Source: Acidobacteria bacterium 13_1_20CM_3_53_8 (lineage in GTDB: Bacteria > Acidobacteriota > Blastocatellia > Pyrinomonadales > Pyrinomonadaceae). From it: a stretch of DNA of 55,862 bases. Shown piece by piece: positions 1,361-14,159 of the stretch. The stretch covers positions 1-55,862 of the forward strand of contig MNJR01000153.1 in assembly GCA_001920415.1 (NCBI GenBank), in the 5' to 3' direction. The notes beneath the pieces are model-generated. The model saw nothing but the letters and a program-made list of their open reading frames with translations, made no database searches and was not told the DNA's origin. A program made the translations under genes and the position numbers. Every line of letters starts with the position of its first letter. Position 1 is the first letter of the stretch.

Positions 1361-1816
1361 ATGAGAATTCTTTTAGCCACAGACGGTTCAGCCTGTAGCG
1401 AGGTGGCGGTGGATGAAGTCGCGCGGCGACCGTGGCCTGATGATAGCCAAGCGCGCATCATCTCTGTCATAGATCTTCCCACGCCGCTCACTTCAGAGCC
1501 TTGGATAAATCCCGAAACTTATTTGAAGGAAGTGGAAGCGGCTGAACGCAGTCAGGCGGGAAAGTCGCTTGAGCGTGCGTCAGCAAAATTACGAGAGGGC
1601 AAAGGGAGCAGAGAGCTTTCTATCACGACGGAAGTTTTAACGGGATCGCCCAAGCGCGTCATCGTAGAAGAGGCTGAGAAGTGGGGCGCTGACCTGATTG
1701 TCGTAAGCTCGCACGGATACCGTAGCTGGGAACGAATGCTGCTCGGCTCAGTCTCGCAAACGGTCGCTCTGCATGCGGAGTGCTCAGTTGAAATCGTGCG
1801 CTGCCCGAAGAGATGA
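1361..1816 (+). CDS. Universal stress protein (UspA family)
   Basis: A single-domain UspA-type protein of 151 residues. It starts with the first beta strand MRILLATDGS, where the Asp contacts ATP in ATP-binding members. It ends with the nucleotide-binding block ADLIVVSSHGYRSWERMLLG followed by SVSQTV, matching the G-X2-G-X9-G(S/T) pattern with the first glycine represented by SHG. It is probably a cytoplasmic stress or energy sensor. AAGGAGAAG sits about 10 bases before the ATG and fixes the start. It is followed within 40 bases by the flavin-binding protein and then a tandem Usp, an arrangement common in low-oxygen or dormancy regulons. Confidence 0.9.
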   Translation: MRILLATDGSACSEVAVDEVARRPWPDDSQARIISVIDLPTPLTSEPWINPETYLKEVEAAERSQAGKSLERASAKLREGKGSRELSITTEVLTGSPKRVIVEEAEKWGADLIVVSSHGYRSWERMLLGSVSQTVALHAECSVEIVRCPKR

Positions 1817-1855
1817 AGGTGCTCGCCCGACAGATGGTTTGGTCAAGATAAGGTC

Positions 1856-2281
1856 ATGATTAAACAACTCAGTCAAGAGCAATCGCGTGAACTGTTGCGC
1901 AAGTGTCGCATAGGGCGATTGGGCTGCATCGCTGGCGATGAGCCGTATGTTGTTCCCGTTAGCTACATCTTCGACGGTGAATGCGCTTACATGCATTCGC
2001 TGCCCGGCCACAAAATCTACGCGATGCGCGCGCATCCACGCGCCTGTTTGCAGGTTGATGAGATAGAGGACGATCTGAGATGGAAAAGCGTGCTGGCCTT
2101 CGGCCACTATGAAGAGATTACTAATCAGGACGAACGCGCAAGGGCGCTCGCCTTCTTGCTTTCACGCTTCCCGCAACTCACCCCGGTCGAATCCTTCATT
2201 GTAGAAGATGCGGGTGCGCCTGCGCCCATAGTCTTTCGGATACGCATCAGCAGGCTCACGGGCATCTGCGAAGGAGATTAG
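1856..2281 (+). CDS. Pyridoxamine 5'-phosphate oxidase-like flavin-binding protein
   Basis: A 141-residue split-barrel protein of the PNPOx-like / FMN-binding family. Recognisable blocks are the N-terminal helix followed by CRIGRLGCIAGDEPYVVPVS, the strand with YIFDGECAYMHS, and GHKIYAMRAHPRACLQVDE, a pattern seen in the small Usp-associated flavin proteins. The substrate is unknown; roles proposed for the family include flavin or F420-dependent reduction. It sits between two Usp genes and ends 2 bases before the next ATG, so translational coupling with the tandem Usp is likely. An AAGG immediately upstream serves as a weak ribosome-binding site. Confidence 0.85.
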   Translation: MIKQLSQEQSRELLRKCRIGRLGCIAGDEPYVVPVSYIFDGECAYMHSLPGHKIYAMRAHPRACLQVDEIEDDLRWKSVLAFGHYEEITNQDERARALAFLLSRFPQLTPVESFIVEDAGAPAPIVFRIRISRLTGICEGD

Positions 2282-2283
2282 AT

Positions 2284-3243
2284 ATGGTTACTCTTAAAAC
2301 AATTTTATGTCCCACAGATTTGTCCGAAGGGTCTGCCGAAGCGCTGCGTTATGCTCTGGCGTTGGCTCATACCTACAATGCTAAGCTTTATCTCTGTCAC
2401 TCAGCCGATAGTTCCACTGTTGCGGACAAGTCCCTTGCGACCGTTACGCCAGATAATTTGCAGGGCTTATTCACCAACTTAATCGTCAAGCATCTTGGTC
2501 AAGTTGATTTCGCAAGCGTTAATTGGGAAGGCTTGTTAATCGAAGGAAGCATTGATCCGGCAGAGTCAATCGCGTGTGCGGCAGCCGAGCGAGGGGTTGA
2601 CTTGATAGTGATGCGCTCGCGCCGTCGGCCACATAGAGCAGCACTTCTAGGCTCGACCGCCGAAGCTGTTTGCCGAATTGCGCCCTGCCCGGTTCTAGTC
2701 ACTCACCAGCATGAGCGCGAGTGGGTAGGTTTGACGACCGGCGCGATTAATCTGAAGCGCGTACTGGTCGCTTACGATTTCTCGGACGACGCGGAGCGCG
2801 CCCTCTCCTTCGGTCTTTCGCTCGCTCAAGAGTATCAAGCAGACCTACACCTGCTGCATGTCGTGCCTAAGCCGACACAAGACGGGCCGGAAATCGCATG
2901 GGGGTCTGCGAGTATAGAGGGCATTTATCATCAAGCTACGCGCCGCCTGCAAAAAGCTGTAATGGGGGAAGCTCAACTGTGGTGCAAAGTCAAGCACGCG
3001 GTTCGTTGGGGCAGGCCGTATCAGGAGGTTCTAGCTTACGCCAAAGAAGAGGAGATTGATCTCATCTGCATAGGCGCGAGCGGCAAGAACTTCAGCATTG
3101 AAGCGCTCTTCGGCTCGAACGCCGACCGCGTGCTCAGACAAGCGCCGTGCCCTGTTCTCGTCGCGCACCCGCTCAAGCCCAAGTGCGTCGCAGGACAATA
3201 CAGCGACCTTTTTGAAAGAGAGGTGTCGCGTCAGGTTTCGTAA
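2284..3243 (+). CDS. Tandem-domain universal stress protein
   Basis: A 319-residue protein with two Usp domains, roughly residues 1-145 and 156-305. The first domain opens with KTILCPTDLSEGS and ends with LLGSTAEAVCRIAPCPVLV. The second opens with KRVLVAYDFSDDAERALSFG and ends with ALFGSNADRVLRQAPCPVLV. Both halves keep the terminal G-S/N-x-A-(D/E)-x-V pattern of ATP-binding Usps. Tandem Usps are typical of hypoxia or stationary-phase stress regulons. It starts 2 bases after the preceding stop codon, so it probably belongs to the same transcript, and it is followed by an FNR-like regulator. Confidence 0.9.
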   Translation: MVTLKTILCPTDLSEGSAEALRYALALAHTYNAKLYLCHSADSSTVADKSLATVTPDNLQGLFTNLIVKHLGQVDFASVNWEGLLIEGSIDPAESIACAAAERGVDLIVMRSRRRPHRAALLGSTAEAVCRIAPCPVLVTHQHEREWVGLTTGAINLKRVLVAYDFSDDAERALSFGLSLAQEYQADLHLLHVVPKPTQDGPEIAWGSASIEGIYHQATRRLQKAVMGEAQLWCKVKHAVRWGRPYQEVLAYAKEEEIDLICIGASGKNFSIEALFGSNADRVLRQAPCPVLVAHPLKPKCVAGQYSDLFEREVSRQVS

Positions 3244-3322: not shown

Positions 3323-4045
3323 GTGATGCGTTCACCACATGGTTTAGAAGCTGTCGAGAGTTGTCAGGATTGCGTTCTGCGTTCTGAGAGCTTCTTTTGC
3401 AATCTTTCAAAAGATGGCTTGCAGGCTTTTGAAAGCATCAAGCTGACAACTCTCTACCCGAAAGGCGCTGTACTTTTCGTTGAAGGCCAAACCCCACGCG
3501 GCGTCTATATGCTTTGCCAGGGGCGCGTGAAGCTTTCCGTCTGCTCTGCTGATGGCAAGATGTTGATACTGCGAGTCTCCGAACCCGGAGAAATTTTAGG
3601 TCTGAGCGCTACAGTTTCAGACCTGCTTTATAAAGCGACGGCTGAAACAGTTGAACCATGCCAGATTAATTTCATCAGAAAGGATGATTTCCTGCGCTTC
3701 CTGCGCGAGCACGGAGAGGCTTGCTTCCGCGTAGCGCAGCACCTCAGTCAAAACTATCACACGGCTTATGTGCAGATTCGCTCGCTCGGACTCTCGCATT
3801 CGGCAATGGAGAAGTTAGCACGGCTACTGCTCGACTGGTGTAATGGCAACAGCAGGAACACAGAGCAGGGGATTCGTCTGAAACTCGCATTGACTCACGA
3901 AGAGATAGCAAGAATGATCGGGACTTCCCGCGAAACGGTCTCTCGTCTCTTCAGTGATCTGAAAGGCAGACAAACGATCTACTTGAAAGGTTCAACCCTT
4001 ATCGTGCGCGACCGAGCCGCTCTGGAAGCCATCACAAACGATTAA
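3323..4045 (+). CDS. FNR-like Crp/Fnr transcription regulator with four candidate [4Fe-4S] cysteines
   Basis: A 240-residue Crp/Fnr protein: cyclic-nucleotide-like beta barrel at about 35-125, dimer helix, and winged helix-turn-helix at about 185-225. The N-terminal cysteines Cys14, Cys17 and Cys26 (ESCQDCVL...FFC), together with Cys113 in TVEPCQINFI, reproduce the layout of the oxygen-sensing cluster of FNR. The recognition helix reads GTSRETVSRLFSDL. Its Arg-Glu...Arg spacing is that of CRP, not the Val-Glu-Ser-Arg type of E. coli FNR, so a TGTGA half-site is expected rather than TTGAT. Such sites occur just downstream. Inference: an oxygen- or NO-responsive activator of the cytochrome genes. 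No strong Shine-Dalgarno; the ATG at 3326 is an alternative start. Confidence 0.9.
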   Translation: MMRSPHGLEAVESCQDCVLRSESFFCNLSKDGLQAFESIKLTTLYPKGAVLFVEGQTPRGVYMLCQGRVKLSVCSADGKMLILRVSEPGEILGLSATVSDLLYKATAETVEPCQINFIRKDDFLRFLREHGEACFRVAQHLSQNYHTAYVQIRSLGLSHSAMEKLARLLLDWCNGNSRNTEQGIRLKLALTHEEIARMIGTSRETVSRLFSDLKGRQTIYLKGSTLIVRDRAALEAITND

Positions 4046-4142: not shown

Positions 4143-4180
4143 TGTGACGCAGGTCACGTTCGACTGTGACCTGTGTCATA
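4143..4180. promoter_or_regulatory. Tandem CRP-like operator pair upstream of the second Crp/Fnr gene
   Basis: Two sites match TGTGA-N6-TCACA. The first, 4143-4158, has TGTGA and TCACG half-sites. The second, 4165-4180, has TGTGA and TCATA. Their centres are 22 bp apart, about two helical turns, so bound dimers would lie on the same DNA face. They lie about 60-100 bp before the start codon of the next regulator. Binding by either local Crp/Fnr protein is inferred from their CRP-like recognition helices. Confidence 0.7.
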
Positions 4181-4241
4181 GAATCTCGGCCCAGATAAGT
4201 TGGAGCATATACGCTGGAAGCGTTGAGGAGGAATGATCTGG

Positions 4242-5000
4242 ATGTCACGGGCGCGCGATTCGGGATCGGTTGAATATTTCTTCAACTCTCAAAGCTTGCG
4301 CGAGGATCAACTCTTTCAAGACATGTTGCCGGAGGCAGTGAAGGCTTTTGAAGCCATGAAGCAGATTGTTCTTTATCCAGAAGGCTCTATGATTTTCGCT
4401 GAGGGGCAACGTCCGCGTGGCGTCTATCTTCTCTCGCAAGGGCGCGCGAATCTGGTTATGCGCCCTAAGGGCAAGAGGGCGCGAATTATCAGAATCGCAG
4501 AACAGGGAGAGATGCTGGGCTTGAGCGCGACCATTTCCGGTGAGCCTTACGAAGTAACAGCCGAGACGCTCACACCATGTCAGGTTGGCTTCATCAAGCG
4601 AGATGATTTTCTCAGTTTGCTACGTGAGCAGCCGGAGACCTGTTTCCGAGTGGCTCAGTTGCTAGGCCAATCCATACATGAAAGCTATGAGCGATTTCCT
4701 CTCTTCGACAAGACTCTGCCAGCGTCAGCAAAACTTGCTCATCTCATTCTCAGTTGGTGCGCTGGAGGGGAAGAGACTGACGAAGGCATCCGCTTGAGAC
4801 TTCCGCTGACGCACGAACAGATTGCACGCATGATTGGAACTTCACGCGAAACCGTGACGCGCGCGTTCGGCGAGTTCAGGCGCAAACAGATCATCCAACT
4901 TGAAGGGGCGACGCTTCTGATTCTCAATCTGGCTGAATTGGAGAGCGTCGCAAAGTCCTGCCAGCGTTCGCAAAAGCTTTCCTGTTTGAGAAATTTCTAG
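4242..5000 (+). CDS. Crp/Fnr transcription regulator, paralog without N-terminal cysteine cluster
   Basis: A 252-residue paralog of the preceding regulator, sharing phrases such as ILxLSATx, AETxxPCQxxFIxxDDFL and HEQIARMIGTSRETV. It retains the central cysteine (TPCQVGF) but lacks the N-terminal Cys-X2-Cys and its partner cysteine, so it cannot assemble an FNR-type cluster in the same way. It may sense something else or be constitutive. The helix SRETVTRAFGEF again matches CRP-type contacts. I prefer the ATG at 4242 because GAGGAGG lies about 11 bases before it; the ATG at 4233 would sit almost on that Shine-Dalgarno. An operator pair lies upstream and another lies behind it. Confidence 0.88.
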   Translation: MSRARDSGSVEYFFNSQSLREDQLFQDMLPEAVKAFEAMKQIVLYPEGSMIFAEGQRPRGVYLLSQGRANLVMRPKGKRARIIRIAEQGEMLGLSATISGEPYEVTAETLTPCQVGFIKRDDFLSLLREQPETCFRVAQLLGQSIHESYERFPLFDKTLPASAKLAHLILSWCAGGEETDEGIRLRLPLTHEQIARMIGTSRETVTRAFGEFRRKQIIQLEGATLLILNLAELESVAKSCQRSQKLSCLRNF

Positions 5001-5009
5001 CTCCGTAAA

Positions 5010-5047
5010 TGTGACGCGCGTCACACTCGCCCGTGACCACACTCACA
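5010..5047. promoter_or_regulatory. Tandem CRP-like operator pair upstream of the cytochrome island
   Basis: The first site, 5010-5025, is a perfect palindrome TGTGACGCGCGTCACA. The second, 5032-5047, reads CGTGA-N6-TCACA. Centre-to-centre spacing is 22 bp, exactly as in the pair at 4143-4180. The pair lies 150-190 bp before the decaheme cytochrome start and within 50 bp of the regulator stop codon, so it is placed to control the electron-export genes. No convincing -35/-10 could be assigned between the sites and the gene. Confidence 0.75.
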
Positions 5048-5196
5048 GACTTATTTACAAGCCCAACCTAACATGCAGGCTGTAGGACTCTAGTTCTTTT
5101 CAACCTACGCAATTATATCCCGCGCGGGCGAGGGCCAGCGATCTTCGGTTTGAATTAGGCACTCTGTGGCGCGGACGCCCGTGGAGGCGAAAAATT

Positions 5197-6234
5197 ATGA
5201 AGCCGTTGAAAACTACCAAAACGCTGCTGATAGGCGGGTGGCTTCTGGGTCTGCTACTGTGGGTGGGCGCAGGCCATCTACCTCATTCGACCGGGACTGC
5301 GCAGGCACAAAACCAGCACCAAGGCGCTTCGCCCGCTGGAGCGCAGGTCGCAGACGCCAACTACGTTGGAAGCGAAACCTGTAGGATGTGCCACGAAGAT
5401 CAGTTCAAGAACTTCTCTCACACACCACACGCTGGACTTGAACAAGAGGCAAGCTGGCATGGGCGAGTCGTTGGCTGCGAATCGTGTCACGGGCCGGGCA
5501 AGGCGCACGTTGACGCGGGCGGCGACCCCACCAAGATAATCAACCCCAAGAAGCTGTCAGCCAAGGCGTCTTCAGAAAGCTGCCTGACGTGCCACGCCGG
5601 ATCGGACGATCACAACAACTTCCGGCGCGGCTCGCACTGGCGCAACGACGTGGGCTGCGTTGATTGTCACGCGCCGCACGACCCAAGCCCAGTCCCTACG
5701 AGGCCAGGCTCTACGACGCTAGTCACGGGGGACGTGAGGCGAAACCCCGAATCAACTTCGCTCTACATGCTGCGTGCGAGCGAGCCGCAGATCTGTTTGA
5801 AGTGCCACAGCGAGCAGAGGGCGCAGTTCAACATGCCCTTCCGCCATCGCGTGCTAGAGGGGGCAATGAAGTGCTCGGATTGCCACAACCCGCATGGCGG
5901 CTTTGAGACAAGACAGGTGCGACTCGCTAGTGGAACGGACGCGCCCTGCTTGAAATGCCACGCGGACAAACAAGGCCCGTTCGTTTTCGAGCACGCGCCC
6001 GTCAAAACCGAAGGCTGCACGATCTGCCACACACCGCACGGATCGAACAATCCTCGCCTTCTCGTTCGCACACAAATTCGTCAGCTCTGTCTGGAATGCC
6101 ACAGCAACGCGCACGAGATCGGCGCGCCGAACACGCCTAATTTCCACAACGAGGCAACTGTGAGATTCCAGAACTGCACGACGTGCCATGCGAAGATTCA
6201 TGGGTCGAACGTCAATCGCACCTTCTTCCGGTAA
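5197..6234 (+). CDS. Periplasmic decaheme c-type cytochrome, MtrA/DmsE-like
   Basis: A 345-residue protein with an N-terminal signal peptide or anchor (hydrophobic LLIGGWLLGLLLWVGAG) and ten CxxCH motifs: CRMCH, CESCH, CLTCH, CVDCH, CLKCH, CSDCH, CLKCH, CTICH, CLECH and CTTCH. Length and heme number match the MtrA/DmsE/PioA family, which passes electrons through an outer-membrane barrel. The gene directly downstream encodes an MtrB/PioB-type barrel, as in known porin-cytochrome conduits. Direction of electron flow (export versus uptake from Fe(II)) cannot be told from sequence. The ATG at 5197 is preceded by GGAGGCG. It is the first gene after the CRP-like operator pair at 5010-5047. Confidence 0.9.
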   Translation: MKPLKTTKTLLIGGWLLGLLLWVGAGHLPHSTGTAQAQNQHQGASPAGAQVADANYVGSETCRMCHEDQFKNFSHTPHAGLEQEASWHGRVVGCESCHGPGKAHVDAGGDPTKIINPKKLSAKASSESCLTCHAGSDDHNNFRRGSHWRNDVGCVDCHAPHDPSPVPTRPGSTTLVTGDVRRNPESTSLYMLRASEPQICLKCHSEQRAQFNMPFRHRVLEGAMKCSDCHNPHGGFETRQVRLASGTDAPCLKCHADKQGPFVFEHAPVKTEGCTICHTPHGSNNPRLLVRTQIRQLCLECHSNAHEIGAPNTPNFHNEATVRFQNCTTCHAKIHGSNVNRTFFR

Positions 6235-10988: not shown

Positions 10989-11069
10989 CTTTGCGCATTC
11001 TTTGCTTCTACAGCGTCTGAGAGCGTGAGGAATAATTTCTCGCTCTCAGACGCCAAGAAGAACGCAAAG
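10989..11069. repeat. Palindromic repeat, family C, copy 1
   Basis: The inner stem GCGTCTGAGAGCG (11013-11025) pairs perfectly with CGCTCTCAGACGC (11041-11053). Outer CTTTGCG (10989-10995) pairs with CGCAAAG (11063-11069). The loop contains GAGGAATAATTTCTC. A nearly identical copy lies at 11548-11636 behind the Rieske gene, so the two bracket it. A GTG inside the repeat at 11025 opens the Rieske frame but is unlikely to be the true start. Confidence 0.9.
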
Positions 11070-11075
11070 AGTTGT

Positions 11076-11537
11076 GTGGTTGCCACAGGCATCTTGGTCA
11101 CAAGGTTTGGAACGCCGGGCAGAAGACGGTTTCTGGATTACCTGCTGGGCACAACAGTTCTGGCAACGCTGGGAGCCATCCTTTACCCAATCTTCAGATT
11201 CATTTCGCCGCCGCAGATAGTAGAGGCCGCCAAGAACTCGGTCATCGCGGGAAAGGTGGGCGAGTTGGCCGTAAACGCCGGAAAGATTTTCAAGTTCGGC
11301 AGCAAGCCCGGCATCCTTGTGCGCACGCCCACGGGAGACTTGAAAGCTTTTTCAGCCGTCTGCACGCACCTCGAATGCATAGTCCAGTACCGCTCCGATA
11401 CGAAGCAAATCTGGTGCGCCTGCCACAACGGCCAGTATAACCTGAACGGCCAGAACATTGGCGGCCCTCCGCCGCGCCCGCTCGAAGAGTACGCCGTAAA
11501 CATTCGCGGCGACGAGATAGTGGTGACCAAGAGCTGA
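11076..11537 (+). CDS. Rieske [2Fe-2S] protein, Tat-type signal
   Basis: About 153 residues from the GTG at 11076. [11 protein letters not shown] followed by a hydrophobic segment is a twin-arginine membrane anchor, expected for Rieske proteins folded before export. The cluster ligands are in CTHLEC and CACHNGQYN, the C-x-H...C-x-x-H pattern of quinol-oxidising Rieske proteins, and a PPPRPL segment follows as in cytochrome bc/b6f members. The frame stays open upstream to a GTG at 11025, but that codon sits in the palindrome. A TTG at 11094 is another option. With the cytochrome b and octaheme genes downstream it should form a quinol:cytochrome c oxidoreductase. Confidence 0.88.
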
Positions 11538-11547
11538 TTGAAAACCT

Positions 11548-11636
11548 CTTTGCGTTCTTCTTTGCTTCTACAGCGCCTGAGAGCGTGAGGAATAATTTCT
11601 CGCTCTCAGACACCAAGACGCAGAGAAAGGCGCAGA
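11548..11636. repeat. Palindromic repeat, family C, copy 2
   Basis: This copy repeats the family C core: TTTGCTTCTACAGCGCCTGA, then GAGCGTGAGGAATAATTTCT, then CGCTCTCAGACACC. It starts about 10 bases after the Rieske stop. The stem is slightly degraded (GCGCCTGAGAGCG against CGCTCTCAGACAC). About 150 further bases without a gene separate it from cytochrome b; nothing else was recognised there. Confidence 0.88.
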
Positions 11637-11788
11637 GTGATTGAATGTAGGAGATAGGCAGATGAAGGAAGAATCAATGAGTTACAGAGGTAATCAATTC
11701 CGCTAACTCTTTATTGAAAACAAAAGCCTTCTTCAACTGCGTAACTCCCAGAATGGTGATTCTTCTGTTTTGAGACAACCTGTAACCC

Positions 11789-12853
<1,065 letters not shown>

Positions 12854-12863
12854 CGGAGGCCAT

Positions 12864-14159
12864 ATGAATCAGCAAGAGAATGAATCTTATAAACGCCAGC
12901 CTTCGCTCATCTCAAAAGCGGGACTTCTACTGCCACGCGCCGTCAAACGATGCTGTAGCCTCGCGCTTATCTCAATGGCGGGTTTGGAGGGAAGACTATC
13001 CGCGCCCGTCAGCCAGATGAACGACAGCATACATCACCAGCGCGGACTCTCCTGCAACGACTGTCACGGCGGCGACCCGACGCTGGAGGACGAGCGCGCT
13101 TCAATGGATCCCCGAAAAGGCTACATAGCCAGACCGCAGCCCGCTCAAGTTCCGGCTTTTTGTGGGAAGTGTCATAGCGACGCTTACCTGATGAAAAAAT
13201 TCAACCCGGCGCTGCGCGTTGACCAGGAGCAGGAGTATTTCACAAGCATGCACGGCAGGTTGCTCCAAAGCGGAGACCAGCGGGTCGCAACCTGTATCAG
13301 TTGCCACGGCTCTCATAACATTCGCTCCGTCAGCGATGCGCTCTCTTCTGTCTATGCAACTAATGTCGCAGAGACCTGCGCCAAGTGCCACGCGAACGCC
13401 GATTACATGCGAGGCTATCAGATTCCAACGGATCAGTACGCGAACTACAAGACAAGCGTACACGCGAGGGCGTTGTACGAGCGGCAGGACGTTTCCGCGC
13501 CGACCTGCAACGACTGTCACGGCAATCATGGAGCTACGCCGCCCGGCGTGGCTTCAGTTGCGAACGTCTGCGGGCAGTGCCACGCACGCCAGTCGGAACT
13601 CTTCCAGTCAAGCCCGCACAAGGCCGTGTTCGATGAAAGGCAGATAGGCGAGTGCATAGGGTGTCATAGCAATCACGGCATCAAGCAGCCGGGCGACCAG
13701 ATGCTCGGCGTAGGCAGTGGCGCGGTCTGCATCAATTGCCACAAGCAGGGAGACACAGGGTACGCGGTTGCGGCTGCGATGCGCTCGAAGATAGATGATC
13801 TATCGGCAAGCATTGACCGCTCGAATGGGATTCTCAACCGTGCAGAGCGTGCAGGGATGGAAGTCAGCCGACCGAAGTTCGATATGCGCGAAGCCATTGA
13901 TGAATTGACGCACGCGCGCGTGCTGATTCACACGTCCTCTACGGCTGAGGTTGAAAAAGTCACAGGCCCCGGGCTTGACATAGCGAAGAAGGGTTATCAG
14001 GCCGGAGTAGCTGCGCTCGTCGAGCGCAGCTACAGGCGAAAGGGTCTTGCGGTCTCGCTCTTCTTCATACTCTTTCTTGCCGCTTTGATCTACCTCAAAG
14101 TAAGGGAGATTGAGAGCCGTGAGGCGGGAGGAGGTCTTTCTAGCAACGAAGCTGCCTAA
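12864..14159 (+). CDS. Octaheme c-type cytochrome with C-terminal membrane anchor
   Basis: A 431-residue protein with eight CxxCH motifs: CNDCH, CGKCH, CISCH, CAKCH, CNDCH, CGQCH, CIGCH and CINCH. The hemes occupy roughly residues 60-300. They are followed by a helical, probably coiled segment ([20 protein letters not shown]) and a C-terminal transmembrane helix ([19 protein letters not shown]). The N-terminal signal is weak but plausible (a basic stretch then [11 protein letters not shown]). It starts 10 bases after the cytochrome b stop with GGAGG before the ATG, hence same operon. I infer that it replaces cytochrome c1 in the Rieske/b complex. Confidence 0.87.

Follow-up and report, generated by a model that had tools for sequence, protein, structure and literature searches.

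The stretch of DNA analysed here, called the window throughout, comprises 55,862 nucleotides of a contig from Acidobacteria bacterium 13_1_20CM_3_53_8. It carries two paralogous genes of the CRP/FNR family, denoted R1 and R2, whose products are 48-49% identical over the matched part, followed by genes for a decahaem cytochrome and an outer-membrane barrel (Table 1). Genes for a UspA-type, a pyridoxamine-oxidase-type and a double Usp protein lie upstream of R1 (1361-3243), and the same three genes precede R1 in the closest relative (L046) at 73-77% identity. Further multihaem proteins are encoded downstream of the barrel, and positions 11025-14159 hold a Rieske protein, a cytochrome b and a multihaem cytochrome. 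In one locus with an R1 homologue devoid of the cysteines (L054), these last three proteins are 79, 79 and 69% identical to those of the window.

Two pairs of TGTGA-N6-TCACA-like sites with centres exactly 22 bp apart, one before the second regulator gene and one before the cytochrome genes, had been noticed in an earlier sequence-only reading. Direct reading of the window bore this out for both pairs. Pair 1 ends 52 bases before the ATG of R2 (4233), pair 2 ends 149 bases before the ATG of the decahaem cytochrome (5197), and the spacers and N4 cores of the two pairs are unlike each other. The position equivalent to the distal operator of pair 1 is occupied in relatives as well. That no similar pair exists elsewhere in the window likewise held: no further 22-bp pair of like strength was found there, and a looser rule added only positions 13355-13392 (9+8 of 12), situated inside the ORF of a multihaem cytochrome.

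Table 1. Regulators, operators, candidate promoter elements and conduit genes of the locus (positions in the window)
Feature	Position	Strand	Remarks
R1 (RegA)	3323..4045	+	CRP/FNR family; Pfam cNMP_binding and HTH_Crp_2; CQDC-x8-C, internal Cys, recognition helix SRETVSR
Pair 1, distal operator TGTGACGCAGGTCACG	4143..4158	+	1 mismatch to TGTGA-N6-TCACA; 11/12 to TGTGAC-N4-GTCACA
Pair 1, proximal operator TGTGACCTGTGTCATA	4165..4180	+	1 mismatch to TGTGA-N6-TCACA; 11/12
Pair 1, weak candidate -10	4203..4211	+	GAGCAT (4203-4208) or CATATA (4206-4211), direct reading
R2 (RegB)	4233..5000	+	CRP/FNR paralogue; N-terminal cysteines absent; helix-turn-helix intact in this genome
Pair 2, distal operator TGTGACGCGCGTCACA	5010..5025	+	0 mismatches (perfect); inferred centre -63.5
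Pair 2, proximal operator CGTGACCACACTCACA	5032..5047	+	1 mismatch; inferred centre -41.5
Pair 2, candidate -10	5069..5074	+	TAACAT, exactly at the distance preferred in relatives; inferred start about 5081
MtrA/DmsE-type decahaem cytochrome	5197..6234	+	first gene after pair 2; TIGR03508 257 bits (cut-off 192); PDB 6r2q chain A, E 2.4e-37
MtrB-like outer-membrane barrel, 730 aa	6292..8484	+	predicted model, mean pLDDT 67

We then looked at the pairs in the whole source genome (6.1 Mb). The pattern GTGAN6TCA-N9-GTGAN6TCA occurred at four exact places, located 52, 58, 102 and 149 bases upstream of an ORF start codon, and at two more places with one mismatch (contigs C102, 3309-3343, and C108, 4243-4277; loci L008 and L009), while its reversed control occurred nowhere. 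Besides the two pairs of the window, exact pairs preceded a DUF3857/transglutaminase gene (contig C9, 3588-3625; L041) and a subtilase gene (contig C78, 4314-4351; L042), and in both cases a TAnnnT hexamer stands at base 23. When the gap was left free between 0 and 30 bases, five exact places were found genome-wide, four of them at 22 bp. The sequence-only reading had suggested a genome-wide scan, with pairs at random positions as the outcome that would speak against it, and such a scan, run by pattern, did not have that outcome.

The first regulator seems to combine features of two well-known proteins. R1 matches both PF00027 and PF13545 above cut-off (sensor and Crp helix-turn-helix domains) and contains cysteines at positions 14, 17, 26 and 113. 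In an alignment with E. coli FNR and CRP, Cys14 and Cys17 correspond to FNR C20 and C23, and Cys113 to the internal ligand of FNR, which we take to be C122. The third cysteine follows the second by eight residues (CxxCx8C), as against five (CxxCx5C) in E. coli FNR. At the positions of E72, R82 and S83, which contact cAMP in CRP, R1 has a gap, Tyr and Lys, and at the specificity position 208 of FNR it has Arg, not Val. The half-site of E. coli FNR is TTGAT, whereas the sites found here read TGTGA. On the other hand, the recognition helix SRETV(S/T)R of R1 carries the residues of CRP R180, E181 and R185; since R180 is linked to G3 and E181 to A6 of the half-site (PMC1274295, in the passages cited), this helix agrees with TGTGA sites. 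In the AlphaFold model of R1 (pTM 0.47), residues 1-23 have pLDDT below 50.

Orthologues of R1 were searched for with two peptides, one being the recognition helix and one containing the internal cysteine, neither of them including the N-terminal cysteines. The best 80 of at least 565 confirmed candidates (hereafter the best-80 loci) covered 1.17 Mb. All were from Acidobacteriota MAGs, mostly labelled Acidobacteriaceae, Acidobacteriales or Terriglobia, with a few from gp4 or Blastocatellia. CxxCx8C was present in 80/80 and the internal cysteine in 77/80. SRETV was also present in 80/80, a result that is partly built in because the recognition helix served as a search peptide. From the conserved cysteines, the CRP-type helix and the cAMP contacts that are not kept, we infer that R1 senses in the manner of FNR and reads DNA in the manner of CRP. 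R1 was rejected as a plain member of the FNR, CRP or HcpR group, as each of these fails at least one tested feature.

It might be argued that R1 is instead a CRP-like protein which responds to a cyclic nucleotide or another small ligand and does not sense oxygen by an Fe-S cluster. Its reading helix and operator are CRP-like, and among NCBIfam models FtrB (67 bits) and CRP (61.5) score above FNR (43.7, cut-off 228), although all three scores are far below the cut-offs. Nevertheless, the cAMP contacts are replaced, and the three N-terminal cysteines conserved in every one of the best 80 of at least 565 orthologues lie in a stretch absent from CRP, so that we regard a small-ligand regulator as improbable.

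The best-80 loci enabled us to examine how strictly the spacing is kept. Under a rule requiring at least 7 of 12 for each site and a sum of at least 18, 173 pairs were spaced by 22 bp, whereas each remaining spacing between 17 and 60 bp yielded 18 or fewer (18 at 48 bp, 15 at 49 bp and 11 at 23 bp, mostly six or fewer elsewhere); 33 of the 173 fall within an ORF as defined by the simple longest-ORF rule that we used for downstream genes. With sites of at least 9/12, 112 pairs were at 22 bp and no more than 12 at every other distance up to 80 bp. Similarly, a partner at 22 bp was found for 188 of the 289 sites of at least 10/12, as compared with a mean of 7.1 and a maximum of 17 at other distances from 17 to 59 bp, excluding 48 and 49 bp (28 and 25). 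At least one pair was present in 68 of these 80 loci (the best of at least 565) and none in 12. The 22-bp spacing is kept both in loci labelled Terriglobia/Acidobacteriaceae and in Blastocatellia. Spacings of 21 and 32-33 bp, which would place the sites on roughly the same face of DNA, were not enriched in the best-80 loci; the constraint is therefore stricter than a mere need for helical phasing. Promoters of R1 itself often contain a third site, 48-49 bp past one site and 70-71 bp from the distal one, for example at about 8850-8960 of L119. By the register described below, it would fall at about +7, a position that would suit self-repression.

As both pairs of the window flank duplicated paralogues, they could in principle stem from a single promoter that was duplicated recently, or else be a product of chance. 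Against this, the two pairs are not alike in their spacers and N4 cores, a 22-bp pair with both sites of at least 10/12 never arose when the window was simulated 200 times with a first-order Markov model, and pairs are kept in distant relatives and before unrelated genes. A chance origin was rejected on the genome scan, the spacing counts in relatives and the simulations, and we give practically no credence to either variant of this explanation.

Furthermore, the pairs tend to occur where R1 occurs. Among 119 genomes of the same family, the exact pair was detected in 14 of 46 genomes with R1 (E at most 1e-30) and in 2 of 73 without it (Fisher p = 2.5e-5). In a sample of 297 genomes from the phylum, the respective numbers were 16 of 34 (E at most 1e-50) and 3 of 263 (p = 1.5e-14); here, at most nine candidates were scored per genome, so some genomes with R1 may count as lacking it, and the pair pattern was one base stricter than that used for the source genome and its family. 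The instances when R1 was present without an exact-pattern pair were frequent (18/34 in the phylum and 32/46 in the family). However, relaxed scoring found a pair in 23 of 29 R1 loci of the family (L089-L117), from which it follows that exact patterns miss many pairs. As for the six remaining loci, the cysteine signature is absent in two (L111, L117) and present in four (L112, L113, L115, L116). Of the 79 best-80 loci with enough upstream sequence, 47 have a pair no more than 320 bases before R1.

The distance from the pairs to a putative promoter element is also preferred. Pairs were thinned at a sequence difference of more than 25%, which left 135 of 152 in the best-80 loci (105 under stricter thinning) and 48 in a set from the own family and class. 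Of the 135 promoters, 29 carried a -10-like hexamer (at least 4/6 to TATAAT) starting at base 22 behind the pair, over a background of 2.3 per position, and 106 lacked one at that base. Among the 105, it occurred at base 22 in 19 and at base 23 in another 15 (background 1.9), and in the own family/class set it was in register in 20 of 48 (background 1.95). The two tests share some promoters (L118, L148, L170 and L176 overlap G012, G056, G045 and G023), and for L058, L114, L116 and L117 the orientation was taken as given, which is wrong for L058 (R1 on the minus strand) and only dilutes the register. Because of this preferred distance, and with starts deduced from the -10 hexamers, the proximal site would be centred at -41.5 and the distal one at -63.5. 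In E. coli, FNR-activated promoters with known starts have a site within four bases of -41.5 in 19 of 23 cases (PMC3688515, in the passages cited). Pair 1 of the window has no good -10 in register, the expected place reading GGAGCA; its weak candidates lie one and four bases past that place, and the proximal site would then be at about -42.5 or -45.5.

The earlier suggestion that equal spacing reflects cooperative binding by two dimers stands in part. Conservation of the spacing and its tie to R1 indicate that the adjacent sites act as one unit, while cooperativity is only one fit: the spacing is compatible with cooperative binding and equally with two fixed contacts to RNA polymerase. Another conceivable arrangement is that the distal site works as a brake, i.e. 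R1 at -41.5 activates, whereas R1 at -63.5 blocks the C-terminal domain of the alpha subunit and damps or times expression, as at E. coli yfiD. An upstream FNR site lowers yfiD expression and the melR promoter is repressed when a second FNR site is placed at -85 to -95 (both as summarised in PMC11264516). In the own family/class set, distal sites score higher than proximal ones (means 10.6 and 9.3 of 12), so that the distal site may fill first. Yet the repressing positions reported in that summary are -85 to -95, many other upstream positions still being inducible (PMC11264516), and a brake would not obviously require one exact spacing at so many targets. For these reasons, a brake appears unlikely to us, although less so than a small-ligand regulator.

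Next, we considered what the second paralogue contributes. In the window, R2 has kept the CRP-type reading helix, and the helix-turn-helix is also kept in G045. In 18 of the 29 R1 loci of the family, by contrast, the gene between R1 and the conduit encodes only about 150-190 residues of the sensor domain, devoid of the helix-turn-helix (L090-L102, L105, L107-L110, several being from the same genera); of the other loci, three are cut by contig ends, one has a remnant and seven have no such gene. A Pfam search with four of the short proteins returned the sensor domain only. For the closest pair of short R2 genes, dN was 0.102 and dS 1.007 (R1 in the same comparison: 0.027 and 1.169), and dN of short R2 exceeded that of R1 in 6/6 pairs compared. 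Judged by the closest pair, short R2 would be under purifying selection and does not look like a decaying gene. The lack of a DNA-binding domain makes a partner or titrator of R1 the simplest reading of short R2. In the promoters of these 18 genes, the right half of the proximal site is always TCCTA instead of TCACA, a deviation from the palindrome that is conserved and faces the polymerase.

The pairs do not call for two different regulators to bind them, as they persist where R2 has lost its DNA-binding domain (18/29). Within the fetched stretches of the pair-bearing best-80 loci, 33 of 68 have one CRP/FNR-family gene and 35 of 68 have two or more, so that pairs accompany single and duplicated regulators alike. 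The need for two DNA-binding regulators was rejected on the 18/29 and 33/68 counts, a rejection weakened by the 35 loci with several family genes. These same 35 loci fit a division of labour in which R1 reads one site and R2 or another CRP-type protein reads the other, as do the reading helix kept by R2 here and the right half of the proximal site, which differs from that of the distal site (TCCTA in 21, TCACA in 11 and TCATA in 9 of the 48 promoters of the own family/class set). Given the truncated R2 and the loci with a single family gene, we would put such a division of labour among the poorer explanations, about level with a small-ligand R1.

As for the genes controlled, pair 2 precedes what is, by the match of its first gene to DmsE and 6r2q chain A and by the fold match of the second to 6r2q chain B, an MtrA/MtrB-like outer-membrane electron conduit, the barrel being assigned by its predicted fold only. 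A sequence profile of the barrel found no match among PDB sequences, whereas a fold search with the predicted model gave chain B of the Mtr complex (6r2q) as the best hit (E 5e-18; next 4.1e-12). Chain A of 6r2q is labelled 'cystathionine beta-synthase' in the file used, and the fold search lists 6r2q as the Mtr complex. R1 and the conduit are neighbours in other relatives of the family, too. Near R1 in the best 80 of at least 565 loci, a DmsE-type match was found in 13 and a porin match in 8 (E at most 1e-10), some of them partial. In a relative (L051/L090), the DmsE-type decahaem gene reads as two overlapping ORFs, which might reflect an assembly error or a broken gene.

Genes downstream of pairs were assigned by the simple longest-ORF rule, and combinations of pair and gene count some genes more than once. 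In the best-80 loci, the pairs were followed by R1-type regulator genes (62 combinations, 53 distinct genes, 47 loci), radical SAM proteins (23 genes), multihaem cytochromes (18 genes), pyruvate:ferredoxin oxidoreductase (21 combinations, 12 genes), an uncharacterised membrane protein (15 combinations, 9 genes) and smaller groups. The representative of pyruvate:ferredoxin oxidoreductase reached 1441 bits (NCBIfam cut-off 911). That of the radical SAM proteins scored 482.6 with the haem b synthase AhbD model, below the cut-off of 500, and is thus only AhbD-like; a malic-enzyme/phosphotransacetylase-like protein also stayed below cut-offs. In two related genomes of the same class (G044, G052), the genes preceded by pairs included, above a cut-off, those for acetate kinase, DmsE cytochromes, aspartate-ammonia ligase and a flavoprotein of the dihydroorotate-dehydrogenase-B type and, below cut-off, those for a methionine-gamma-lyase-like enzyme and a sulfhydrogenase-beta-like subunit; several further genes had no family assigned. 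From this, most targets named by family would fit anaerobic metabolism and some would not: the DUF3857/transglutaminase and subtilase genes of the source genome, and aspartate-ammonia ligase and the methionine-gamma-lyase-like enzyme of a relative, are not obviously anaerobic. No hcp was found among the R1 targets whose representatives were named by family search.

Taken as a whole, we consider it probable that the pairs are operators of R1, an FNR-type and probably oxygen-responsive activator, bound as two dimers side by side. According to this model, which is drawn from sequence, active R1 would place two dimers next to each other on one face of DNA, 22 bp or about two turns apart. The promoter-side dimer at -41.5, the usual position of a class II activator, would touch RNA polymerase, and the outer dimer at -63.5 would stabilise the inner one and/or hold the alpha subunit of the polymerase. 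Pair 2 would turn on the MtrA/MtrB-like conduit. Pair 1 would turn on R2, probably a modulator of R1 rather than a DNA binder.

As single elements, TGTGA sites, tandem sites and class II activation at -41.5 have all been described before. E. coli FNR resembles R1 in having cysteines in comparable places, the CRP/FNR fold, a promoter-side site at -41.5 and anaerobic-type targets, and differs in the cysteine spacing, specificity residue and half-site given above. Class III and tandem promoters of E. coli CRP share TGTGA-N6-TCACA, the R180/E181/R185 helix and two dimers per promoter, although R1 does not keep the cAMP contacts. One site was present in 89% of the direct-regulon peaks of FNR (PMC3688515), as opposed to paired sites as a rule here, and class III sites of CRP centre near -93.5 (PMC5957442), in contrast to the fixed -63.5, in the passages cited. 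HcpR of Desulfovibrio has the consensus wTGTGAnnnnnnTCACAw and, as far as the passages cited go, no canonical FNR cysteine motif (PMC1274295), whereas R1 possesses the cysteines. In Herbaspirillum seropedicae, several Fnr paralogues coexist per cell as well, with evidence for Fnr1/Fnr3 heterodimers; however, both partners there have DNA-binding motifs, and no extra Fnr sites were found beside the motif in co-activated promoters (PMC5934665), while in the loci studied here the partner is often devoid of a DNA-binding domain and sites commonly come as twins. The MtrAB conduit of Shewanella likewise consists of a decahaem cytochrome and a barrel and has a CRP-like half-site upstream. Its omcA and mtrC genes have putative single CRP sites at -61.5 and -60.5 (PMC4417206, in the passages cited), whereas the conduit analysed here would have twin sites centred at -41.5 and -63.5 and a regulator that resembles FNR.

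In a literature survey of titles, abstracts and a few passages, with most subscription journals outside it, we found no CRP/FNR-type system with a second dimer at a fixed 22 bp as a rule, nor, within the same scope, the spread of such a system over Acidobacteriota, the combination of FNR-like cysteines with a CRP-like head, or a controlled short paralogue. Judging by title and abstract, and with bioRxiv preprints outside, no description of the control of anaerobic genes in Acidobacteriota was found.

Going one step further, we can speculate about a feedback circuit in which R1 uses a twin-dimer promoter to switch on a truncated copy of itself that has no DNA-binding domain, and this copy pairs with R1 subunits and limits the filling of adjacent sites. 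We hold this circuit to be possible, with the odds against it. No such circuit of an activator and its shortened copy was found in print, most subscription journals being outside the survey. If it operates, promoters with twin sites, including that of the conduit, would switch on sharply and shut off early, and the genome analysed here, whose copy retains the DNA-binding domain, would stand at an earlier stage.

Soils harbour abundant Acidobacteriota, most of which are uncultured. The strict 38-bp signature would allow part of their anaerobic and extracellular-electron-transfer genes to be read from genomes and MAGs. The pairs would also offer a natural test case for two adjacent activator dimers at a class II position. 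Finally, R2 illustrates the loss of the DNA-binding domain in a paralogue of the FNR family, with signs of purifying selection where it is measurable.
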